Part shown: one piece after another, positions 17,505 through 43,781 of the stretch | How the letters are laid out: every line of letters begins with the position of its first letter | Numbering within the stretch: position 1 is the first letter of the stretch | NCBI GenBank assembly: GCA_947166945.1 | Contig: CAMVGH010000008.1 | Location: forward strand, 1-46,550 | DNA length: 46,550 nucleotides | Direction: 5' to 3' | Origin: an uncultured Clostridia bacterium | Lineage (GTDB): Bacteria; Bacillota; Clostridia; Oscillospirales; Ruminococcaceae | Notes under the pieces: model-generated | Told to the model about the DNA's origin: nothing | Seen by the model: the letters and a program-made list of their open reading frames with translations, nothing else | Database searches by the model: none | Position numbers and translations under genes: made by a program

Positions 17505-17580
17505 TGAGCCGTAGCCAAGCGGTAAGGCAAGGGACTTTGACTCCCTCATCCCGTGGGTTCGAATCCCGCCGGCTCAACCA
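17505..17580 (+). tRNA. tRNA-Gln (anticodon TTG)
   Basis: A complete 76-base tRNA. The acceptor stem pairs TGAGCCG (17505-17511) with CGGCTCA, followed by the discriminator A and an encoded CCA (17578-17580). The anticodon stem AGGGA/TCCCT encloses CTTTGAC, giving anticodon TTG for glutamine. The T arm has GGTTCGAATCC. No duplicated 3' end, and so no integrated element, was seen downstream. Confidence 0.97.
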
Positions 17581-17600
17581 GGCGCGGTGTCCGCGCTGAC

Positions 17601-17838
17601 AAACCGTATGGCAGTTATCTGCTATACGGTATTTTTCTGCCTCGCTGTCCGGAGTTCGGATATACTTTTTGTAATGCAATCACAGCGGCGAGCCGCCGCC
17701 CCCAAACCGTATGTTACTTCGGTGACATACGGTATTTTTCTGCCTCGCTGTCTGGAGTTCGGATATACTTTTTGTAATGCAATCACAGCGGCGAGCCGCC
17801 GCTCCCAAACCGTCTGTCACTTTTGTGACAGACGGTGT
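17601..17838 (+). repeat. 103-bp tandem repeat carrying terminator-like hairpins
   Basis: Two almost identical 103-bp units (17601-17703 and 17704-17806) and the start of a third (17807-17838). Each begins AAACCGT and forms a hairpin followed by T residues: loops TTAT (about 17614), TTCG (about 17718) and TTTT (about 17821). The inner stem bases differ between units but stay paired. Each full unit also ends with a small GCGGC-GA-GCCGC hairpin. The array fills most of the 282-bp gap between tRNA-Gln and the end of the XRE gene on the other strand. Only direct repeats of this kind are seen; it is not a CRISPR array. Confidence 0.85.
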
Positions 17839-19052: not shown

Positions 19053-22000
19053 ATGTTTTGCGGAAATTGCGGAACTAAGGTTGAGGACGGAGCGATGTTC
19101 TGTCCCAATTGCGGTAATAAGCTCGCGGAAGCTGCTGCACAGGCAGTCGAGGAGGTCGCTGCGCCGGTTCAGGAAACGGTAACACAGGCAGTCGAGCAGG
19201 TCGCTGCGCCCGTTCAGGAAACAGTAGCACAGACAGTCGAGCAGGTCGCTGCGCCCGTTCAGGAAACGGTAGCACAGGCAGTCGAGCAGGTCGCTGCGCC
19301 CGTTCAGGAAACGGTAACTCAGGCAGTCGGGACAACGATCCCCCCTCTGCCGGAAATGCCGCAGATAAACGGCATTCAGCAGCCCACAGAGCCTGTACAG
19401 CCCGAATTCAACGTGCGTCCTGCTTCGCAGCCGGTGCCGGAACAGCCTGTACAGCAGTTCCCCGGAGCGGCGTCTGTACCCGAAGCGCCGGTCACACCTG
19501 TGAAGAAGAAAAAGGGTAAGGGCGGCGTTATTGCGGGAGTTACGGCTGCCGCAGTAGTAGTCGGCGGCGCAGGAGTAGGCTATTTCGGATTCCATGATAA
19601 GATCACGAGGACATTCATGGGTGATGTGGCTTACGCACAGATGGTGAATAAAGACGCTGTGTCGTCAATTACAAAAGCCGATGCCTTTGACAGCGGCACC
19701 GAACTCGGTGTCGGTGCATTTATGGATTCTGTCATATCCTCGAAGGTATATAGTCTGACCGGTGATTCATCGGCTGTCACATCTTCCTATCTGTCAATAC
19801 TGAAAACAATGGGAACCGGTGCAGGCTCGAACTATGAGAACATTATCGAAGAGGCTCTTTCGGCAATACCGGAAGGCACAAAGGTGACTTCGAAAAACTC
19901 GGTGAAAATCGAAGCCGGCAGTGTGTTTGCGCTTGTCAGTGACGGGCAGATCGGAGATATCCTGAACAAGATAAATGATTTCTCGTTTGTTTCCGAACTT
20001 GTAAACGGCTCAACCGATATGATATCTTTCGGACTTTCGGACAGCGACGGAAATATCGGTTCCCTTGAGGCGTACATGGACGAGTCCGGCGATATTGTCC
20101 TGGCGTTCCCGGGTATATCGGAAAAGACTGTACGCATTAAAAAGGAAGATATCGAAAAGTCCCTGAACGGCAGCGAGGAAAAGAAGGAAGAAACTCCCTC
20201 CGTAACATTCAGCGAAGATGAGGCAAAGCGTATCAGGCAGGCTGTTACGGATATCTACTATGACACATACAACAGTGCGCGGATAAGCTATTCTGATGCC
20301 GTATTCACAATGGGGGACGGCGAATGGAAGACGGAAGCAAAGGGAACATCTGTATCCGTATCCTTCACTCCCGCCGAACTTAAAGCAATGATCGACAAGA
20401 TCGGTGAATTCCTGAAAAATGACGCATACCTCATAAGCTATGCAAAGGATAGATTCGATCTGTCCGAAGAGGATTACAAGGGGATATTCAAAGAGGCTGA
20501 GGACGTAAAATATTCGCTTGTCTCCGAACAGCTCGTCGATGTACATAACAAGGTCATCGGCTCGAAATATATCATAGAGCAGGAAGACAGCGCGAATAAG
20601 ATCATTGCGGTAAATATATCGGGTGACAAACTTAATGCCGGCGCCATAGACATTACCGGCAAAGACGGCAAAAAGGTAGGTTTCAAGCTGTTTGACCGCT
20701 CGGAGAACGGCAAGGACGGCTCTATGCTTGCACAGCTGGGTATAGAACAGGAAGACGTCGAGTTTGCATTCAAGGTGGATTACACCGGCAAGGACAAGGC
20801 TCAGTGGCTCGGCAAGGAAACAGGTGTCGGTACATATATTGTAACGCTTGCGGATCCGGACAAGTTCGTTGACTCAATGAAGAAGCTTTCAGACGGCGGC
20901 ACAAAGATACCGGATATAAGCGATTTCAATGCGAATATGAGCAATGAACTGATCGCGCCGGTCATGTCTGTTGCCGAGGGCGGCAATGACAAGAGGTTCG
21001 GCATTGACAATGAGAAACTCATAGCGGAGATCAAGAAACTGGAGATCGTAATGTCCACTGTTGTTGACGGAAACACGATGAATACGGATCTCAGCATTTC
21101 TGCCGGAGATATAGGCAAGATCACATTTACTTCGGCATCTGTTTCGGAGTCGGCGAACGTATCTCTTCCCGACAGCTCGAAGGAGATCAGTTCGGACGAT
21201 AAGGAAGCACAGAACGAATTCACCGAGGAAGCTCTCGGATGGGTAGGCGGTCTTACCGAAAAACTCGGCCTCGGCGATCTCGGCAGCATGCTCGGCGGTA
21301 TGGGCAGCATTGGCAGCAGCGGTTTCGGCGGTGATAACGACGAAGATTCCGACAAGAAAGCACATTACGCAGCGTATGACAGATATGAGTCCGGTACTTT
21401 TGCGGACGAATGTGCGGAAAAGATCTACAACGGTCTCAACGATACCGTCAAGTCGGCAATGACCGCAAAGGGAAGCGATGTTACAAGCGGCGTCATCAAG
21501 CTCTGGTATGACGACGGTAATCTGAAAGTCATCAGCGACGCGGGCGTTTCCGGCATCACATACACGGACAGCAGTTTCGATTCCGTTTACGCGGAGGTCG
21601 TATTCGATGACAGAGTTGCGGAAGGTATCGCCGGTGTTACCGTAATACTTACCGACAATGAGAACGATCTGCCGAATAATGACTATCCCGCCGCGCTCAA
21701 TTACTACGATCAGATGTACAAATGGGATAATTACGGCAATCAGATAGGCGATTTCGCGGCAGGTTCTTATCCCGTACTTTACTACGGCGATCCTTATACC
21801 GAGAAGCTTCCCGATAAGAAGATCTCCGTGAGCGAACTGAACGAAGCGGCGAGAGCGGTATCCGAAAGTTTCTCCTCCTACCTCGGAGTTTCCAACAGAC
21901 TCAATATCCAGCCCATGGGAGAAGAATCCGTTATCCAGTTCCTCGTGAAAGAAGACGGCGCTATCGTGCTTTATGACGAGTACACGGTCATAGACGAGGA

Positions 22001-23336
22001 GAAGGGCAAGGAAGCGGCGGAAGTCGTAGCGAAGGCATGCGACATAAAGAATGCGCTTGTAGGTCTGTATTTCTGCGACAACGTGTTTGTCGGCACAGCT
22101 GTGCTGCCCGATGAAGGCGATGTGGATACATTCCTCACCATGAACAGTATGCCCACCGCGAATGACTTCAAGAGCGGCGAATTCGTCGGCTGGTACGGCA
22201 CCTCGGAAAGCGATTATGAATCCCTCCCCGGCTATATCTACAACAACGATTATGATGCGGTGCGCGTCGGAACATACAGTCTTAAAACACAGGGTGAGCT
22301 TGTGCTTCCGGGCGAGAACGGCAGCACATCATCTTCTTCAGCCGGTGCAGTCGGCAGATGGACTGTTACCGATGGTTACGGTGACTTCTTTGTTGCTGAT
22401 ACAGATCCGTCGCTGGTCGATATGTATGTTACGGTCTTTGAAGAAGATATGGCGCTTGAACTGGGCGTAACGGAAGGAAGCTTTATCGGACGCTATTTCG
22501 TTGTACCTGATGGGGACAGCGGTGACTATATGCTGTTTGCCACAAAGGACGATGCCGAAGAAGCCGATGAAGACAAGGTTGTCGGCGGACTGTTCTTTAA
22601 TGACGAGGATCACAGTGTTCTGGTTATATTCGACGAAAACCAAAGATATGCAATGTACGAACTTGTCCGTGAAGGCGCAGCGTCTGCCGGCGGTACCGGT
22701 GATTACGAATTCGGGGAAGTCAAGGAAGATCCTGAACTGTCCGACATAGCGGGTGAATGGGTCGGTGAATTGCAGAGCGGCACAATGGTGCTGCATATAA
22801 GCACCAACGGTATTATAAGCGGGTCGGACTCCGATGACACATATCTCTTTGTAAACCCGCGCAGCGGTGGATTTGATATTTTCTCTGATATTGAAGGCAA
22901 TGTCAATTCCGGCAGTATTCTTTACAGTGCCGAGACTGATTCGATCTCTGTCACAGACGGAGAAACGGTAATTTTCTCCAGAGTAAGCACACAGCCGGCA
23001 TACGGATATATCGGCGAATGGGAGCTTGACACGCTGGACGGCGTATCCATGGCGGATATCGCGGAGCGTCTCGATCAGCCTCTTGAAGCTATCAACTCAT
23101 ACATGACCGTATCGGCGTATGACATCATTCTTACGAACTCCGAATCCACACAGATACTTCTTATCGGTGCCTATGACGAGGGATACTATGTAAAGAACCC
23201 CGGTGAAAACTTTGTGGAAGTCGGCGATTATGATGCAGCGACCGATACTCTGCAAGTCACATCTTCGGTATTCGGAGAAGGCGATTCACAGGACGCGGAG
23301 TCCACCACGATCCTTGTATTCAAGCGTAAAAATTAA
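19053..23336 (+). CDS. Large zinc-ribbon membrane protein with extracytoplasmic body
   Basis: A 1427-residue protein of unknown function. Residues 1-22 are a zinc ribbon with cysteines 3, 6, 17 and 20 (FCGNCGTKV, FCPNCGNKL). Residues 30-90 are four copies of a 15-residue repeat (AVEQVAAPVQETV). A Pro/Gln-rich linker and a KKKKGKGG stretch lead into one membrane helix at about 157-178 (AGVTAAAVVVGGAGVGYFGF). The remaining 1250 residues should face outside. They are acidic, contain SLADPDK-like and SGDK-like beta-rich segments, and end in two or three lipocalin-like sheets that open with a GRW/GEW turn (AGAVGRWTV, IAGEWVGEL, YIGEWELDT). Zinc ribbon followed by a helix is a common layout of Firmicutes envelope proteins. 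No sorting signal is present. It probably forms its own transcript. Confidence 0.85.
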   Translation: MFCGNCGTKVEDGAMFCPNCGNKLAEAAAQAVEEVAAPVQETVTQAVEQVAAPVQETVAQTVEQVAAPVQETVAQAVEQVAAPVQETVTQAVGTTIPPLPEMPQINGIQQPTEPVQPEFNVRPASQPVPEQPVQQFPGAASVPEAPVTPVKKKKGKGGVIAGVTAAAVVVGGAGVGYFGFHDKITRTFMGDVAYAQMVNKDAVSSITKADAFDSGTELGVGAFMDSVISSKVYSLTGDSSAVTSSYLSILKTMGTGAGSNYENIIEEALSAIPEGTKVTSKNSVKIEAGSVFALVSDGQIGDILNKINDFSFVSELVNGSTDMISFGLSDSDGNIGSLEAYMDESGDIVLAFPGISEKTVRIKKEDIEKSLNGSEEKKEETPSVTFSEDEAKRIRQAVTDIYYDTYNSARISYSDAVFTMGDGEWKTEAKGTSVSVSFTPAELKAMIDKIGEFLKNDAYLISYAKDRFDLSEEDYKGIFKEAEDVKYSLVSEQLVDVHNKVIGSKYIIEQEDSANKIIAVNISGDKLNAGAIDITGKDGKKVGFKLFDRSENGKDGSMLAQLGIEQEDVEFAFKVDYTGKDKAQWLGKETGVGTYIVTLADPDKFVDSMKKLSDGGTKIPDISDFNANMSNELIAPVMSVAEGGNDKRFGIDNEKLIAEIKKLEIVMSTVVDGNTMNTDLSISAGDIGKITFTSASVSESANVSLPDSSKEISSDDKEAQNEFTEEALGWVGGLTEKLGLGDLGSMLGGMGSIGSSGFGGDNDEDSDKKAHYAAYDRYESGTFADECAEKIYNGLNDTVKSAMTAKGSDVTSGVIKLWYDDGNLKVISDAGVSGITYTDSSFDSVYAEVVFDDRVAEGIAGVTVILTDNENDLPNNDYPAALNYYDQMYKWDNYGNQIGDFAAGSYPVLYYGDPYTEKLPDKKISVSELNEAARAVSESFSSYLGVSNRLNIQPMGEESVIQFLVKEDGAIVLYDEYTVIDEEKGKEAAEVVAKACDIKNALVGLYFCDNVFVGTAVLPDEGDVDTFLTMNSMPTANDFKSGEFVGWYGTSESDYESLPGYIYNNDYDAVRVGTYSLKTQGELVLPGENGSTSSSSAGAVGRWTVTDGYGDFFVADTDPSLVDMYVTVFEEDMALELGVTEGSFIGRYFVVPDGDSGDYMLFATKDDAEEADEDKVVGGLFFNDEDHSVLVIFDENQRYAMYELVREGAASAGGTGDYEFGEVKEDPELSDIAGEWVGELQSGTMVLHISTNGIISGSDSDDTYLFVNPRSGGFDIFSDIEGNVNSGSILYSAETDSISVTDGETVIFSRVSTQPAYGYIGEWELDTLDGVSMADIAERLDQPLEAINSYMTVSAYDIILTNSESTQILLIGAYDEGYYVKNPGENFVEVGDYDAATDTLQVTSSVFGEGDSQDAESTTILVFKRKN
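19140..19319 (+). repeat. Four 45-bp coding repeats
   Basis: Four head-to-tail copies of a 45-bp unit start at 19140, 19185, 19230 and 19275, each beginning CAGGCAGTCGAG or a close variant, with a partial fifth at 19320. They encode the 15-residue repeat of the zinc-ribbon protein and differ at only a few bases. Confidence 0.95.
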
Positions 23337-24960: not shown

Positions 24961-25017
24961 GACGCTTCACGGCTTTCCTTAGGAAAGGGGAATTACCGTG
25001 AAGCGTCTTTTATTATT
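24961..25017 (+). terminator. Terminator-like hairpin containing the start of the next gene
   Basis: GACGCTTCACGG (24961-24972) pairs perfectly with CCGTGAAGCGTC (24996-25007); inside it CTTTCC (24973-24978) pairs with GGAAAG (24982-24987). A run of TTTTATTATT follows. The 3' arm contains the GTG start codon at 24998 of the lipoprotein gene, the inner stem covers its ribosome binding site, and the T run encodes its leucines. Confidence 0.75.
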
Positions 25018-25537
25018 GGCGATGCCGGCGGTGCTGGCATTGTCGGCATGTTCCGGCGGGACGGTCGGGAATGTGCCGCCCGATCTTGACCAGGCGTTCA
25101 GTGCCGAAGCGGACATAGTCTATGACGGACAGGAATGTACTGCGCAGATACGCCGCATGGAGCGGGATATCTGGGAGTTCTGCATCACCGACCCGTACCC
25201 TGTGGAGGGGCTTGTGATAACTGTTCGGGGCGATGAAACGAAAATGAAGATGTATGATATGGAGAGTGCTGCCGATGTGAGCGGCAATGCCGTAAGCATG
25301 GCGCGTGCCGTGGTGACGGCATACGAAGCCGCCGCAGACAGCGGTTCGGTAGTCACGGAAGGCTACAGTGCCGCGGCGGTTGCGGGAAGTTCGGAACTCG
25401 GAGCTTACACTGTCGTGTTCGACGAGAACCTTGCCCCTGCCTCCATAACCTCCGACGCGGGAAAACTGTCTGTGGCGATAACGAAGTTTGCCCCGCTTGA
25501 AAGAGATACCGAAGCGGAAATAGTCATAGTTGAGTAG
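24998..25537 (+). CDS. Small lipoprotein of unknown function
   Basis: A 179-residue secreted lipoprotein. The signal peptide KRLLLLAMPAVLALSAC ends in a lipobox with cysteine 18. The mature part has no recognised domain; it has alternating beta-type segments (EADIVYDGQECTAQIRRM, VEGLVITVRGDETKMKMYD) and an Ala/Ser-rich stretch around residues 95-135. The start is GTG at 24998 behind GGAAAGGGGAA; both lie inside a strong hairpin that also looks like the terminator of the Nnr gene. Expression may therefore depend on opening that hairpin. It is the last plus-strand gene before a long non-coding mosaic. Confidence 0.85.
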   Translation: MKRLLLLAMPAVLALSACSGGTVGNVPPDLDQAFSAEADIVYDGQECTAQIRRMERDIWEFCITDPYPVEGLVITVRGDETKMKMYDMESAADVSGNAVSMARAVVTAYEAAADSGSVVTEGYSAAAVAGSSELGAYTVVFDENLAPASITSDAGKLSVAITKFAPLERDTEAEIVIVE

Positions 25538-25583
25538 GAACCGCGCCCGATATTTGGCGTCACAGGAAGAAAAGCTATAATTG

Positions 25584-25691
25584 ATGTGTCCTCAATAACT
25601 GCCTTTTGGCAGTTATTGACTGAAAATCTGCAAAACAGATTTTCAGATGTTGTTTAAATGCGCCTGCGGTGCATTTAAACAACGGACACAT
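25584..25691. repeat. Cloverleaf-like element: three perfect hairpins inside a closing stem
   Basis: ATGTGTCC (25584-25591) pairs with GGACACAT (25684-25691). Inside lie three perfect hairpins with almost no spacer: TCAATAACTGCC/GGCAGTTATTGA (25592-25619, loop TTTT), CTGAAAATCTG/CAGATTTTCAG (25620-25646, loop CAAAA), and GTTGTTTAAATGC/GCATTTAAACAAC (25649-25683), which extends by GCC/GGT to a 3-base loop. Only two bases (25647-25648) are unpaired at the junction. There is no coding sequence here; what the element does is unknown. Confidence 0.9.
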
Positions 25692-25693
25692 TC

Positions 25694-25777
25694 CTTGATG
25701 TCAAGCTCATTTCGTCCTTCGGACGAACAAAAGCGCAAGGAAAATCCTAAAATATATAAATTTTCCTTGCACTTTTG
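25694..25777. repeat. Three further contiguous hairpins
   Basis: CTTGA-TG-TCAAG (25694-25705), TTCGTCC-TTC-GGACGAA (25711-25727), and immediately after it an 18-bp inverted repeat with one mismatch, CAAAAGCGCAAGGAAAAT (25728-25745) with ATTTTCCTTGCACTTTTG (25760-25777). They continue the mosaic that begins at 25584. Confidence 0.85.
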
Positions 25778-25952
25778 CAGCCATTAATTGGGTTCTGCAA
25801 AGTATCTTTCAAAAAAGTAATGTTTTGATTTTGTACACACTTTGAAATTTAAACGCGAAGCGATCAAAAGTCTTTGGAAAGGGGTTTGGGGGAAACCTTT
25901 CTTCAGAAAGGTTTTCCCCGGTCTCAAGCGAAGCGGCTTCTCTGATATGCGT
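25778..25952. other. Non-coding rest of the 456-bp gap, with a G-rich hairpin repeat
   Basis: No gene is seen. A 15-bp stem (one G-T pair) joins 25888-25902 (GGGGGAAACCTTTCT) to 25905-25919 (AGAAAGGTTTTCCCC). It is preceded by TTTGGAAAGGGGTTTGGGGG-type sequence of the kind that recurs between genes in related Clostridia, a statement from memory. TTTTGAT/ATCAAAA near 25823-25869 may form a looser outer stem. Confidence 0.6.
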
Positions 25953-25990
25953 AAAGCTGTCACATCAGAAATGTGACAGCTTTTTGAGTT
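25953..25990. terminator. Terminator between converging genes
   Basis: A perfect 13-bp stem, AAAGCTGTCACAT (25953-25965) with ATGTGACAGCTTT (25971-25983), has a 5-base loop and is followed on the plus strand by TTTTTGAGTTTT. It ends plus-strand transcription and lies 10 bases beyond the stop of addA on the minus strand. Confidence 0.85.
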
Positions 25991-25993
25991 TTA

Positions 25994-28900
25994 TTATCCG
26001 ACGGTGATGCTTTTTCCGAGCCAGAACGAATACAGCACCCGTTCTTTCACAGTCATTCCCATCGACTCGGTGAGCGCATGCGCGTAAACGGCAAGCTGCC
26101 CCCGGTATTCCCGTATCAGGTCTTCTTCGGTAACATGACTGTTGGTCTTGTAATCTACGAGAACGATCCCGCCGGCTTCAATGAAGAACATATCGGTTAT
26201 GCCCTGGATAACGGGTCTTTCGTCATAATCCCACCCGTTCGCGTCAATACCGTATTTCCGGCAGATATTGCACAGCTCCGCGTCATCGGGTTCATAGAAG
26301 AGCGGGTATTCCTTGAAAATGCTTTCTTTCCCGCATGCAGCGGCTCGGCGGCAGATATCGCTGTTCAGGAATGTCACGATATCATCGTCATTGATCGAAT
26401 TTCGTTCGGTCAATGAAATGCTTCCGCGTTCGCAGAATCTGTCAAGCTCGGCGGAGACAGATTCCGCCGGGGTCGAAAGATCTATCAGTTCGAGAGCCTT
26501 GTGGTACGCGTCACCGCGTCTTTTTCCGGTTAGTTTTGAAGCATCTCCGCTTTTCAGAAAGGACGGAACACGCAGTACACGGGTATCGTCATCTGCTCTG
26601 CCCTCATGCTCAAAATCGCTGTCCACGCCTATCTGGGTGGCAGTGAATTTCGCGGGAACTTCCGAATATCTGCGGTACTTGTAACCGGTGAACAGGGAGA
26701 TCCCCACGGAAGGAGATACATCGGGCGCGGGCGCGGAGGGTATCTCATCGTACATCGGGTCGCATACGGGAATGATAAGCCCGTCGGTCACGGCGCCGCT
26801 TTCGGTTATCCAGCTGTGGTGGGTGTCCTTCTGCGGCTTCTTTCCCGACAGCGGAACGGTGATGATGAGCTTTTCCTTAGCGCGGGTGAGCGCCACATAC
26901 AGCAGTCTCATGCTTTCGCTCATCTCAAGCCGCCCGTATTCCTGTGCGACGGTATTATAGAAGTATGTGTTGATCCGCAGACGCTTTTCGGCATCGACGA
27001 TAGTCATTCCGATGCCGTATCTTGCGTCGCAGATTATGCCGTCGGCTCTGTGTATGCTGCGGTTGGTGCTTTTAAGGTTTACAAGGAAGCATATCGGGAA
27101 TTCCAGACCTTTTGAACTGTGGATAGTCATTATCTGCACAGCATCACGGGAGCTTCCGTCTCCTTCGGCTTTTGTGAGCTTTATCTTCTTTTTGCCGAGA
27201 GTGTCGAGGTATTGCAGAAAATCATACAGTCCGGCACTTTCACTGCCCGGGAAGTTTTCCGCGTAGTGTGCCAGCATCCGCAGATTGAGTCCCTTTTTAA
27301 GTCCGCCTCTGCCGACTTCAAATGCCGGGACTATCATACTTTCGTCGCATATTTTACGGATAAGCCGAGCGGGGGAGTTCTCGGCGGCATATTCCCGCCA
27401 GCTTTCTATGTCACGGAGAGCATTTGCGGCACGTCCACCCTTCTTCGCGGCTGCGACAAGCCCTGACCACAGGTCGGAGCGTTTCTGTCTGCCGCTTTGA
27501 TATATTGTGTCGAGACGGTTACTGTAAATGTCGGGAGATATATCTTTTATTAAGTTTCCGACTGCCGCGTCGTTTTCCGGTATTTCTCCGCCGGAACGTT
27601 CTCTCACGGCTTTATCGAGTGCGGAAAATTCCCCGTTGAGCCGTGCCAGCTTTTCGAGACCGTATTTCAGGCTTCCCTTTTCGTACAGCTTCATTTCCGC
27701 GACTTCGGCGGCGCTGAACAGATACGGTTCTTTCATAAGTACCGCGGCGAGATCCGCGTCGCGGTATGGGTCATCTATCACCCGCAGCAGCGACAGCATA
27801 TATTTTACTTCCTCGAGGTCTGTGTAATCGCTCTCGTCCTTTGCCTCAAACGGTATGTCGGCATCGTCGAGAGCTTTTTTGTATATTGCTGCGAAATTGG
27901 TATAGCTGCCCATTATCACGGCGAAATCCCCATATTGGCAGGGGCGTGTTCCGCCGTTCCCGTCGGAAACGGGGAAACCCTCCGCGATCATTTTACGGAT
28001 ACGCTGCGCTATGTATCCCGCTTCGCGTTCACGGGCTTCCTTACTGTCACGGGCGTGTATCTCAATGAACTCGGTACCGTTTGCGCTGTCGGTGGTGGGG
28101 TATGAGGCTCCCCGCACGAGCCTGCATTCGTCGTTGTAGTCCACATCGCCTTTTTCCAAGGTCATAGTTCCCTCGAAAATGGCGTTTACCGAATCGACCA
28201 CCTGTTTGCAGCTGCGGAAATTCTTGTTCAGCCGCAGTACTTCAAACCCCGAGCCATTCTTTGTAAGTCTCTGGAACACCAGCGGATCGGCGCCGCGGAA
28301 CCGGTAGATCGACTGTTTGATGTCACCGACAAGGTACAGGTTCGTAAGATCGCGGGACATCAGGCGGTACAGTTCATACTGTACTTCGTTGCTGTCCTGG
28401 AACTCGTCCACTATGATTATGCGCATTTCGGCGGCGATAGCTTTTGCAACGGCGCTCTGACCTCCGTTCCCGTCGCCGAGCAGAGAAAGCGTTTTAAGCT
28501 CCATGTCGTCAAAGTCCAGCCCGCCGAGTTCGCTTTTAAGCCTTGAGAATTCGCTGTCGTACTTTCCTACAAGTTCCAGCAGGGCTTCAAGCACCGGTGC
28601 GCACTGTCTGTTCTCTGTACCGATCTTCAGGATCTTATCCGAATTTCCGGGGAGCGTGGCGCATATTTCTTTCAGTTTTGTGATACAGCTTTTTACTTCC
28701 TGTACATTCACTTTTTTTGATGTTGTCGTACAGTCGGTGGCTTTTGCGGCTTTCGCCGCCAGAAATGCGTCATCGGCGGCTTTCAGCTTTTCCCTGAAAT
28801 CGTCCGAACCCCATTCGGCTTTGCCGTACATACCTGCAAGCATCAGCCACGTTTCGCCGGTGCCGGCAGCGGGAGTATCAGCCGTCATGGCGCACAGTTC

Positions 28901-29629
28901 GTCAGTAAGCCGCTGTATCTCTTTCAGCGGCAGGATCACGGAACTCTGCAATTCTTCGTCGATCCGCTCCTTCATCAGGCCGGTTATCGCGGCGGGATCA
29001 TTGAAAGCCGCAAGCTGTCTTTCAAAGAATCTTTGCGCGTCGGGTATCTTCTTTGAGAACTCATGCAGATATCTTACAGTTTCTTCGAGCCTGCTGTCGT
29101 CCTCACCCGCGAATCTTTCATACAGCATATCTCTTTTTGCGGCGGTCACGCTGTCCTCAGCCTCGCAGAATCCGTCGAGGACAGTCTTCATAGCCTGTCC
29201 GGCAAGCAGCTTTGTCTGGGATTCATCCAGCACTTTGAAATCCGGGCGCAGACCCGCTTCGGCGCTGTATCTGCGCAGTATGTTCATACACAGCGAGTCA
29301 GTGGTGCAGATGTATGCGTCTTTCAGGCGGCGCTGCTGCTCGGTTATCAGCTTTCTTAGTGCAGTATCGTCCTTTTCTGCGGCTCCGAGAGCGTCTTCCA
29401 GCGCCGCTTCCAGCCTTGACCGCATCTCGGAGGCGGCTTTTTTTGTGAACGTAGTGATGACAGTCTCATCGGCATAAACCGGGTCTTCGGTGTTCAGAAA
29501 CAGCCTTTTCACCCGTTCAACGAGCACGGCGGTCTTTCCGCTTCCGGCGGCAGCCGAGACTATGGCAGCTCCGTTACGGTGATCTATAGCCTTTATCTGT
29601 TCGTCAGACCATTTTATTTCTTTTGCCAT
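25994..29629 (-). CDS. addA: ATP-dependent helicase/nuclease subunit A (AddA)
   Basis: A 1211-residue recombination enzyme that, with AddB, resects double-strand breaks. Helicase motifs in order: Walker A AAAGSGKTA (near 26-34), Ia TTFTKKAASEMRSRLE, II IIVDEFQDSNEVQYEL (near 405), III GDIKQSIYRFRGADP, IV LNKNFRS, V MTIHSSKGLEFP (near 800) and VI LLYVALTRAKEKL. The C-terminus is the RecB-type nuclease: FIEAGGIVLVDYKTNS near 1160 holds the catalytic Asp and the YKT lysine. Length is normal. Unusually, addB is not next to it; the gene starts 3 bases after an OmpR-family regulator, whose last codons contain its AAAGGT site. It must pair with an AddB encoded elsewhere. Confidence 0.95.
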   Translation of the reverse strand: MAKEIKWSDEQIKAIDHRNGAAIVSAAAGSGKTAVLVERVKRLFLNTEDPVYADETVITTFTKKAASEMRSRLEAALEDALGAAEKDDTALRKLITEQQRRLKDAYICTTDSLCMNILRRYSAEAGLRPDFKVLDESQTKLLAGQAMKTVLDGFCEAEDSVTAAKRDMLYERFAGEDDSRLEETVRYLHEFSKKIPDAQRFFERQLAAFNDPAAITGLMKERIDEELQSSVILPLKEIQRLTDELCAMTADTPAAGTGETWLMLAGMYGKAEWGSDDFREKLKAADDAFLAAKAAKATDCTTTSKKVNVQEVKSCITKLKEICATLPGNSDKILKIGTENRQCAPVLEALLELVGKYDSEFSRLKSELGGLDFDDMELKTLSLLGDGNGGQSAVAKAIAAEMRIIIVDEFQDSNEVQYELYRLMSRDLTNLYLVGDIKQSIYRFRGADPLVFQRLTKNGSGFEVLRLNKNFRSCKQVVDSVNAIFEGTMTLEKGDVDYNDECRLVRGASYPTTDSANGTEFIEIHARDSKEAREREAGYIAQRIRKMIAEGFPVSDGNGGTRPCQYGDFAVIMGSYTNFAAIYKKALDDADIPFEAKDESDYTDLEEVKYMLSLLRVIDDPYRDADLAAVLMKEPYLFSAAEVAEMKLYEKGSLKYGLEKLARLNGEFSALDKAVRERSGGEIPENDAAVGNLIKDISPDIYSNRLDTIYQSGRQKRSDLWSGLVAAAKKGGRAANALRDIESWREYAAENSPARLIRKICDESMIVPAFEVGRGGLKKGLNLRMLAHYAENFPGSESAGLYDFLQYLDTLGKKKIKLTKAEGDGSSRDAVQIMTIHSSKGLEFPICFLVNLKSTNRSIHRADGIICDARYGIGMTIVDAEKRLRINTYFYNTVAQEYGRLEMSESMRLLYVALTRAKEKLIITVPLSGKKPQKDTHHSWITESGAVTDGLIIPVCDPMYDEIPSAPAPDVSPSVGISLFTGYKYRRYSEVPAKFTATQIGVDSDFEHEGRADDDTRVLRVPSFLKSGDASKLTGKRRGDAYHKALELIDLSTPAESVSAELDRFCERGSISLTERNSINDDDIVTFLNSDICRRAAACGKESIFKEYPLFYEPDDAELCNICRKYGIDANGWDYDERPVIQGITDMFFIEAGGIVLVDYKTNSHVTEEDLIREYRGQLAVYAHALTESMGMTVKERVLYSFWLGKSITVG

Positions 29630-41311: not shown

Positions 41312-42661
41312 ATGGCAGGTTTTGCAAAAAGACCGCGTCGTAAAAATCCCGCGGTGAAGTCGCACAGGAAATATGATATGCCCACCGATGAGGATACCGT
41401 GAGCAGCTACGCGAATGCCGGCTACTTCGATGACGACGATGACGACGATGAGCCTGACCTCGGTGCTCACAAAAAGAACAGGTCAAGAACAAGGGTCATT
41501 TACGATGATGATATAATGACAAGCAGAAAGAAGAAACCGAATATATTCATACGTGCGCTTACCGCTATATTCCCGGTAAAGGGCGACGGAGTCAAGGAAT
41601 CGGTCCGCAAGGTGATATTCGATATCGCCGTGGTGGCATTCGTAATAACCGGCGGTATGGTGCTTCGTGACGTTATCGGCGAGGCACATTCCAGTGCGGT
41701 GGTTGACCCGATGATAGAGGGCTGGTACGATACGGTCGGCGGAGGAAACAGCAGCAACGGCGGAAGCGATGCGGAAGACCGTGAGACGCAGATCGAAAAG
41801 ATCAAGGGTACGCTGAATATGACCGACGCGGAGATCGAGAAGGTCGAAGCAGAAAAGCCCGGAATTCAGCCCAGCTTCATAAAGCTCTACTCGGAGAACT
41901 CCGATGTCGTGGGCTGGATATCGCTCGGCGGCAAGGACGACCCCATAGTGAAGATAAATTACCCCGTTGTAAAGGCGGAGGACAACGACTACTACCTTAC
42001 TCATGACTACCTGAAGAACGAGGAACAGCGCGGCGCGATATTTGCAGATTACCGCAATGTGTTCGAGCCGGACAGACTTTCGGCAAATACCATTCTCTAC
42101 GGTCACAATATGTGGAACGGAGAAACGATGTTCGCAAAACTCTCCCGCTATTATGAACCCAATGCTTTCAGCGATCCCGCAGAGTATAAGAATGATCCGC
42201 TCCTCTTCTACAAGCAGCACCCTACGTTGACATTCAATACCCTCTACGAGGACGCTCAGTGGAAGGTGTTCGCCTGTGTACTGTTCAATACTCAGGAACA
42301 GCTCGGTGAGGTATATCCGTACCTCAACTACCGTGATTTCCCGAATGAGGCGACATTCAACAGCTTCATACTCGATATCATGGACAGAAGCGTGCTGTGG
42401 ACAGACGTTGACCTCACCTACGGAGACGAGATACTCACACTCTCAACCTGCTACTATCCTTATACAAAGGAAAGAGCAGACACAAGATGCGCGGTGTTCG
42501 CACGCAAGGTGCGCCCCGGAGAGTCCGCGGAAGTCGATGTATCAAAGGCACAGCGCAATCCCGACCCGCTTATGTTCACTTTCCAGTATGAAGTAAGAGG
42601 CGGCGGTTCATGGGGCGGCAGAAAGTGGGATACCTCCAAGCTGCTCAGCTACAACGGCTGA
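41312..42661 (+). CDS. Class B sortase 1, with long acidic cytoplasmic N-terminus
   Basis: A 449-residue membrane transpeptidase. Residues 1-95 are cytoplasmic, with an Asp stretch (FDDDDDDDEPD, about 39-49) and basic blocks. One membrane helix at about 99-119 (IFDIAVVAFVITGGMVL) is followed by the outer catalytic domain. The triad is H265 (YGHNMWNG), C380 (LTLSTCYYP) and R392 (DTRCAVFARK). The domain has the class B core GWISL...INYPVV...DNDYYLTHDY. The C-terminus ends GSWGGRKWDTSK, shared with the next sortase. Sortases cut a sorting signal and join the protein to peptidoglycan; no substrate with such a signal is in the window. AAGGAGAAAG precedes the ATG, 10 bases after pncC. Confidence 0.93.
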   Translation: MAGFAKRPRRKNPAVKSHRKYDMPTDEDTVSSYANAGYFDDDDDDDEPDLGAHKKNRSRTRVIYDDDIMTSRKKKPNIFIRALTAIFPVKGDGVKESVRKVIFDIAVVAFVITGGMVLRDVIGEAHSSAVVDPMIEGWYDTVGGGNSSNGGSDAEDRETQIEKIKGTLNMTDAEIEKVEAEKPGIQPSFIKLYSENSDVVGWISLGGKDDPIVKINYPVVKAEDNDYYLTHDYLKNEEQRGAIFADYRNVFEPDRLSANTILYGHNMWNGETMFAKLSRYYEPNAFSDPAEYKNDPLLFYKQHPTLTFNTLYEDAQWKVFACVLFNTQEQLGEVYPYLNYRDFPNEATFNSFILDIMDRSVLWTDVDLTYGDEILTLSTCYYPYTKERADTRCAVFARKVRPGESAEVDVSKAQRNPDPLMFTFQYEVRGGGSWGGRKWDTSKLLSYNG

Positions 42662-42725: not shown

Positions 42726-43781
42726 ATGTCCAGAAAAAGCAAATTCACAAGAGCCGCAGCACTTATTGCTGCCGCACTGATGACATTCTCTGCGGCGTCC
42801 TGCGGTTCCAACACCGAAACGCCCCAGGATTCCGGAACCGCGGATACTCTCTCCGCCTCCGAAACATCGGCACCTGAGGAATCCACCACCAAAGCGGCTA
42901 CCACGACCACTATCAAGATAACCACGACCACCACAACTACCCTCGCGCCACTGCCTGTTCTTGACGATTACAAGGAGTGGGTAGATAAGAACGATGATAT
43001 CAAGGGCTGGATAAAGGTCGGCGGCACACCTATCGATTACCCCTGCGTACAGGGTACGGACAACTCCTACTACCTAGAGCATGACTATGAGAAGAACGAG
43101 ATCCGCAACGGTGCCTGCTTCATAGACTATCTCTGCGAATTCACCACCCGCACAAGACCTGCCAATATCATAATCTACGGTCATAACATGAGGACAGGTC
43201 CGAGCTTCGCAAAGCTCACCACATACTGCCCGTGGTACTACACAGGATACAACAAGTCCGGCACAGGCTTCTCCATAAGCCAGTACACCGAGAACCCCAC
43301 AGTCACATTCAATACCGTATGGGAAGAGGGTACATACAAAGTATTCGCGGCTATGTTCGTTAATACAATGGAAGAACACGGTGATGTATTCAGATACTAC
43401 CGTCAGAGAACTATAACCAGCGAGTATGAGTTCTATAACTATATAGCAAATATCCTCGACCGCAGCCAGTTCTACACCGACGTTGATCTTGAATACGGCG
43501 ATGAGCTGCTCACTCTTTCGACCTGCTACTATCCGCTCGGCAACAATGTTGATACAAGATTTGTATTGTTCGCAAGAAGGCTCCGTGACGGCGAAAGCCC
43601 CGAGGTAGATGTATCAAAGGCTACTATCAACTATGACCCGCTCTATTTCAAGTACTGGTATCAGGTATATGGCGGTTCATGGGGCGGCAGAAAGTGGGAT
43701 ACCTCCAAGATCAAGGGCCTTGACGAATATATGAAGGCTCACCCCGATCAGGAGATCGGCACTATCGAGGCAGCACAGTAA
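42726..43781 (+). CDS. Class B sortase 2, predicted lipoprotein
   Basis: A 351-residue class B sortase with an unusual anchor: the N-terminus is a lipoprotein signal (ALMTFSAASC, cysteine 26) instead of a membrane helix. A Ser/Thr linker follows (about 27-75, including TTTTTTTLAP). The catalytic domain has H153 (YGHNMRTG), C267 (LTLSTCYYP) and R278 (DTRFVLFARR), so it looks active. The C-terminus GSWGGRKWDTSK matches sortase 1. A lipobox-anchored sortase is rare in my knowledge. AAAGGA lies 10 bases before the ATG; the gene follows sortase 1 by 64 bases. Confidence 0.92.
   Translation: MSRKSKFTRAAALIAAALMTFSAASCGSNTETPQDSGTADTLSASETSAPEESTTKAATTTTIKITTTTTTTLAPLPVLDDYKEWVDKNDDIKGWIKVGGTPIDYPCVQGTDNSYYLEHDYEKNEIRNGACFIDYLCEFTTRTRPANIIIYGHNMRTGPSFAKLTTYCPWYYTGYNKSGTGFSISQYTENPTVTFNTVWEEGTYKVFAAMFVNTMEEHGDVFRYYRQRTITSEYEFYNYIANILDRSQFYTDVDLEYGDELLTLSTCYYPLGNNVDTRFVLFARRLRDGESPEVDVSKATINYDPLYFKYWYQVYGGSWGGRKWDTSKIKGLDEYMKAHPDQEIGTIEAAQ

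Follow-up and report, generated by a model that had tools for sequence, protein, structure and literature searches.

A short gene-less DNA element with two tandem cloverleaf folds and a preference for promoters in Ruminococcaceae genomes

The window (the whole stretch of 46,550 nucleotides that was analysed) contains a copy of a short, multi-copy DNA element without coding capacity, the recognised copies being too short for a gene. The element is real and its closest kind is the bacterial MITE. Full copies are composed of two tandem cloverleafs, each of which holds one terminus of the element in its closing stem. The reading preferred here, to which a probability of about 0.7 is given, is that of a non-autonomous, MITE-like and promoter-favouring element which is moved in trans and whose ends are presented in folded-DNA cloverleafs that are under selection.

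The window copy is 201 bp long (25584..25784, forward strand) and was recognised as a deletion form of the 254-bp element by comparison with full copies and from its flanking duplication, the hexamer TAATTG being found in identical form at 25578..25583 and at 25785..25790 (both forward strand). Its left cloverleaf (25584..25691, +) is supported by folds and by covariation in relatives; it consists of a closing stem (25584-25591/25684-25691, +) and three hairpins (25592-25619, 25620-25646 and 25649-25683, +). The sequence-only reading had described four helices here, and all were found as it states: the 8-bp closing stem encloses hairpins of 12, 11 and 16 bp, a single pair is G-T, and the junction has two unpaired bases. 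Its opinion that random DNA would not fold in this way was borne out by a DNA fold of -44 kcal/mol, as good as which none of 200 dinucleotide shuffles was (z -13.4); RNA parameters with flanks gave the same cloverleaf (z -9.9). It had also excluded a tRNA and known riboswitches, in agreement with Rfam, where the one match that reaches the gathering threshold anywhere in the window is a tRNA at 17505-17577, outside the element. On the full copy L005, Rfam 15 gave 10 matches, all far under gathering scores. The limits that it drew enclose a real fold but only the left half of the unit; the second, right cloverleaf and the promoter preference are additional to its description.

The right half begins with TTGATGTCAAGCTCAT (25695..25710, +), which contains the inner strand of the right closing stem and in full copies pairs through it with the 3′ terminus ATGAGCAGACAT; the window copy has lost ATGAGCAGACAT. 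A first hairpin (TTCGTCC/GGACGAA; 25711..25727, +) and a second with an AT-rich loop (25728..25777, +) follow, all three features being assigned from folds of full copies and from the consensus fold. The last hairpin is missing, apparently by deletion at a GCAG repeat, and the terminal ACAT is now CCAT.

The copy sits between two convergent open reading frames, one at 24998-25537 (+), for which there was no Pfam match, and one at 25994-29629 (-) with UvrD helicase and PD-(D/E)XK domains, which is presumably AddA-like. The left hexamer overlaps a TATAAT at 25576-25581, which is without a good -35, and the copy faces the convergent gene. In the same gap, an inverted repeat around GGGGGAAACCTTTC/GAAAGGTTTTCCCC (25870-25919) lies beside the element and a terminator-like hairpin with a T run is found at about 25953-25985. 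Elsewhere in the window, a tRNA gene is followed by two 103-bp tandem copies that are 90% alike (17505-17805), 45-bp tandem repeats (19127-19351) occur inside a 1427-aa ORF (19053-23336) that begins with a zinc ribbon, and identical 39-nt stretches (42602-42640 and 43671-43709) lie near the ends of two adjoining ORFs.

When copies are oriented, the unit starts with ATGTGTCCTCA and ends with TGAGCAGACAT. The ends are of the type ATGTNTNCTCA and the terminal inverted repeats are imperfect (ATGTGTCCTCA / ATGTCTGCTCA, 9 of 11 positions matching). The commonest unit length is 254 bp (32 of the 101 copies with a recognised 3′ end), and recognised copies range from 90 to 323 bp, the 3′ end having been sought up to 420 nt ahead. 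In the left cloverleaf the 5′ terminus ATGTGTCC pairs with GGACACAT and encloses three hairpins; in the right one an internal ATGTC.AA.GCTCAT pairs with the 3′ terminus ATGAGC.A.GACAT and encloses three further hairpins. Copy L005 with short flanks folds as DNA at -100.9 kcal/mol (z -20.2). Both domains were found in all 18 representatives (248-262 bp, chosen at <93% identity), with two blemishes: a nested short copy replaces the last hairpin in L111, and the left closing stem is reduced in L044. By inspection, copies of 322-323 bp carry extra hairpins within the fourth helix. In a relative from the genus (G019), the inner strand GTGTCTGCT is again complementary to the 3′ end, which there reads AGCAGACAC. 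One locus was folded per genome in other genera; both domains were seen in L370 (G326), L371 (G293), L372 (G187) and L373 (G180). In L376 (G355) the right domain is reduced, and L375 (G258) and L377 (G246) show only the left one, while L374 (G177) is cut off by a contig edge.

Short forms of 42-51 bp were also found. Copies of 126 bp and 51 bp turn up repeatedly, which may equally be due to movement of the short forms or to deletions that arose more than once at short direct repeats. Forms of 51 bp, composed of one hairpin and both ends, recur beside TAA-hexamers (L201, L204, L219 and L356). Elements inserted into or directly beside one another were observed at L209 (near 10680), L394, L091, L219 and L111.

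In the genome from which the window comes (G000; 3.39 Mb, 244 contigs), the covariance model R1 gave 40 rows. Of these, 18 are opposite-strand echoes, which leaves 22 distinct places, and 18 of the places score more than 120 bits. Within the genus, 16 of 60 sampled species' genomes match R1, and a single genome gave as many as 54 rows, among which there may be echoes. Across the family, the model R2 matched 9 of 297 genomes and 7 of 126 genera, counts that include the genome of the window and its genus; outside the genus, 8 genomes in six other genera match. Among named genomes at least 97 stretches were found, the listed titles being Ruminiclostridium, Ruminococcus, Ruminococcaceae and uncultured Clostridia; the carriers are gut-type bacteria, several of the listed named ones coming expressly from rumen, omasum or abomasum. 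The named carriers are almost all labelled as MAGs, and contamination of G000 is 6.3%. A full copy had no match in phage and plasmid collections. In viral contigs the internal motif gave no match, and the end patterns occurred in 15 and 1 stretches, which were judged from their context to be chance, neither a second end nor a matching fold being seen. The identities of phage or plasmid repeat, tRNA and Rfam RNA were rejected, with no above-threshold match at the element.

For the study of insertion sites, 209 places were obtained from three model searches of fetched loci; 11 near a contig edge were dropped and 47 duplicates merged to give 151 copies, which are loci chosen among the best-scoring matches. 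An GCAGACAT end lies within 420 nt in 101 of the 151. Because of this 420-nt limit, longer gene-bearing copies could sit among the 50 copies without a recognised end. An exact 6-bp target duplication flanks 70 of the 101, and the duplications at L034, L121 and L127 are of 7, 7 and 5 bp. The commonest left hexamers among all 151 are TAATTA (36), TAAATA (33), TAATAA (31) and TAAGTA (14). Of the 31 without an exact duplication, 14 carry two different TAA-hexamers, which may be due to recombination between copies or to MAG chimeras. The joined flanks of 15 copies were compared with 71 genus genomes, and clean empty sites with a single hexamer were found for L021 in G024 (98%), for L113 in G000 itself and in G043 (98 and 97%) and for L103 in G058 (93%). 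The joined flanks of L005 gave an 82% match in G048, also running through the junction; the matches of L010 in G039 and of L009 in G051 do not align cleanly at the junction. The flanking hexamers thus behave like a target duplication. A structured mobile repeat had been one of the identities proposed from the letters of the window, and it is strongly supported by the many copies, by stems that are changed yet paired, by the target duplications and by the empty sites in sister genomes. A recombination or attachment site read as folded single-stranded DNA had been offered as well; folded-strand reading is a possible mechanism, but the flanking hexamers speak for a target duplication.

The folds are compensated. 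Aligned with MAFFT, 23 left cloverleafs (26 representatives without the three that are truncated) gave the same fold in RNAalifold, with two-sided change in 25 of 38 pairs. From 17 full elements (the 18 representatives less L111), RNAalifold found both cloverleafs unaided, with two-sided change in 45 of 97 pairs. When the fold of L002 was imposed, two-sided compensated change was seen in 45 of 105 pairs; 93.9% of 1774 cells were paired versus 84.0% in shuffles, and 181 cells were doubly changed versus 56.9, a number that none of 500 shuffles reached. One of the five covariation measures was weaker, with 80 further pair types versus 74.4, reached by 22 of 500 shuffles. Comparisons with shuffles are inflated by sequence relatedness, and a slid-partner control, with at most 34 doubly changed cells, and close pairs of sequences were also relied on. 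The right closing stem is nearly invariant in the full-element alignment (10 of 11 pairs), and its support hence rests on the folds and on G019.

A near neighbour was lacking for 9 of 85 distinct left cloverleafs, and 63 comparisons were made. Single changes between near neighbours gave 24 GT pairs, 35 AC mismatches and 28 transversion mismatches, with 15 further changes between non-standard states. Seven double changes from one Watson-Crick pair to another were found in close pairs, versus 0.79 expected (the largest of 300 simulations gave 4). Close copies decay nearly regardless of pairing. The source copies, by this pattern, would be the ones selected for a DNA fold that serves mobility. 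The main rival to fold selection is that template switching from one palindrome arm to the other, a mutational process, keeps the stems perfect. It would agree with the strand symmetry of the compensation and with the seven compensated double changes; against it, uncorrected single changes are far commoner among close copies (87 vs 7), and the left closing stem covaries too although its arms are 92 nt apart. Arm-to-arm switching is considered unlikely, and it is compatible with the rest of the preferred explanation.

Partial searches revealed neither an autonomous partner nor a transposase. The terminal inverted repeat pattern in G011, G059 and G000 gave no pair of ends spaced like an IS. The end motif was searched in 8 genomes (among the matches listed), in 6 low-copy genomes and in G326 and G293. 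No partner was seen among the ORFs at four 3′-end loci without a listed cloverleaf (L189, L195, L203 and L205), which were read by eye, or at L341, L344, L349, L355 and L203, where ORFs were listed by length only. In G326 and G293, 7 of 20 motif places have no matching 5′ end, and one of them, L393, was followed up. A search for PF01609 in 8 copy-rich genomes gave matches at five loci in four of them, and no locus had ends that form a matching pair. A cut-and-paste DDE transposase would fit the 6-bp duplication best.

A different mover for the same element would be a tyrosine recombinase (Xer- or integron-like), for which TGAGCAGACAT-N6-ATGTGTCCTCA would serve as a site that is folded or dif-like and has a crossover of 6 bp. 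The junction of a circle would then be of 11+6+11 bp, which is the size of a dif site, and the 14 hybrid hexamer pairs resemble coupling sequences. Moreover, an element end lies 28 nt downstream of an Xer-like gene in G326 (L393, 495-1511), and an element lies about 60 nt beside a homologue in G000 (L404, C37). This proximity in two genera may be chance; element ends are near only these 2 of the 19 loci of the Xer-homologue search. Of 9 other genomes, 7 have a single close homologue (44-53% identity), G293 has two, one of them with an internal stop, and G059 has none; the gene, being conserved across genomes, looks like a housekeeping one. A 1170-bp candidate in G326, with the Xer-like gene between TAATTA repeats, was rejected, as most of the other genomes have a close homologue of the gene and the repeat is missing at the left end. 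Further, copies that are nearly identical have different hexamers, although the two sides of a copy agree in 70 of 101 cases, and the recognised copies are too short to carry a recombinase gene, with none of their own or co-mobile found. Movement by a tyrosine recombinase is judged a little less probable than template switching.

The insertions show a marked preference for promoters. TATAAT is present exactly 2 nt upstream of the element in 59 of the 151 copies, and the profile of the flanks contains TTGA at -31 to -28 (0.50, 0.44, 0.39, 0.40), T at -11 (0.49), G at -10 (0.34) and TATAAT at -8 to -3, with a 17-bp spacer. The background was compared for the 133 copies that bear the ten commonest hexamers; their TATAAT share is 43.6%, versus a mean of 12.5% for 3759 hexamer-matched sites (largest of 1000 draws 21.1%) and 16.7% for 1495 intergenic sites (largest of 1000 draws 25.6%). 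Where TATAAT is present, 37% of copies vs 21% of background sites have a -35 of at least 5/6 at a distance of 16-18 bp, and 54% vs 26% have a TG extension. The 75 copies among the 133 without TATAAT have a -35 at 5/6 in 0% vs 2.0% in the background, and so the majority of insertions lie outside recognisable promoters. As judged from these sequences, sigma-A promoters seem to be favoured and not required, other TAANNN sites being used as well. In an independent repeat with two other genera (G326 and G293), TATAAT precedes 9 of 13 exact-duplication copies versus 12% of 125 sites, and 6 of the 9 have a -35 of at least 5/6. The duplicated hexamer spans about -10 to -5, which lies inside the stretch that is melted in the open complex, and this suggests the melted promoter as the targeting cue. 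Selection after insertion may add to the preference.

Position downstream of promoters also brings up a regulatory RNA leader that is spread by transposition and kept since its RNA fold serves host genes, which is close to the non-coding RNA considered in the sequence-only reading. A transcript would start inside the element, and a gene start with a ribosome-binding-like site lies within 250 nt in 26 of 42 TATAAT copies with a 3′ end (27 of 59 others). This reading is quite improbable, however, as 92 of 151 copies are not after TATAAT, the window copy is between convergent genes, G-T pairs are not in excess over A-C mismatches (31 GT vs 42 AC cells in alignment A6; 87 vs 124 in the 106 distinct sequences of the model alignments) and pairing is freely lost in close copies. 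From the last two points, which rest on comparison of sequences, the fold seems to be required in DNA, for mobility, and not in an RNA leader. Single-strand mobilisation of the IS200/IS605 or RAYT type, as for REPINs, would suit the strong hairpins at both ends and the recurrent deletions, which resemble the outcome of slippage between short direct repeats at the bases of hairpins, but it is the least probable of all given the exact 6-bp duplications and the lack of a Y1_Tnp match in 6 of 12 copy-bearing genomes (G000, G034, G043, G059, G053 and G007), three of which are only 79-86% complete, the matches in the other six being in some cases only fragments.

For a MITE-like element moved in trans, the following steps can be proposed. 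In a Ruminococcus-like genus and some related genera, the gene-less element would be mobilised by a putative trans-acting enzyme that makes a cut staggered by 6 bp in its target at TAANNN. Preference would be given to sigma-A promoters, at their melted -10 region, so that the element would often land between -10 and +1. Both ends would be presented in the closing stems of the two folded-DNA cloverleafs, and source copies would be selected for keeping both folds.

Several known systems share some of these properties. REPINs and the IS200/IS605 family have hairpin-rich ends and include non-autonomous forms; to our knowledge they move without target duplication, and 6-bp duplications would not be expected of them. 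The present element differs in its exact duplications and in having no consistent Y1 transposase. The attC sites of integrons are folded DNA read by shape, which is a possible analogy, though here neither an integrase nor a cassette array was seen and flanking duplications are present. The bacterial MITEs (Correia/NEMIS, RUP, ERIC, QMITE) are alike in being short, gene-less and multi-copy, with imperfect terminal inverted repeats, target duplication and stable folds, as far as the consulted parts of two reviews describe them (PMC10969869; PMC2229807). Going by the same parts, the present element stands apart by its pair of consecutive three-hairpin domains, each with one terminus in its closing stem, by pairing that is conserved over the genus and seen again in other genera, by its -10 preference and by the absence of a source IS from the search results. 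In these parts, the reviews (PMC10969869, 2024; PMC2229807, 2007) report intergenic preference, stem-loop transcripts and promoters carried on MITEs, and name neither -10 targeting nor a conserved two-domain fold. The YPAL/RU-2 repeat of Yersinia is likewise, in the part of the review that treats it, a mobile repeat with internal inverted repeats, duplications and empty sites, the duplications being of 3-26 bp at or beside dyads as against 6 bp (seldom 5 or 7) at TAANNN here (PMC2229807). Such an element was not named in open-access titles or the starts of abstracts, which is weak evidence of absence.

The element joins compensated DNA folds, closing stems that contain both termini, and insertion with single-base precision between -10 and +1 of promoters, a combination not met in the consulted parts of the MITE reviews. 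It is conceivable, and no more than a tentative proposal, that it stands for a new class of mobile DNA whose ends are recognised as folded-DNA cloverleafs and not as sequence, and which is aimed at open promoters and often becomes the first stretch of a host transcript. The Ty3 retrotransposon of yeast, a eukaryotic retroelement, inserts at transcription starts; the present element resembles it in start-site insertion and differs in being gene-less DNA at bacterial sigma-A promoters. If such a class were true, it would be a bacterial analogue of the start-site-targeting retrotransposons. If the fold is the recognition signal, structure-read mobility would become testable outside integrons and IS200/IS605, and if the open promoter is the target, the element would be a natural probe of bacterial transcription starts.
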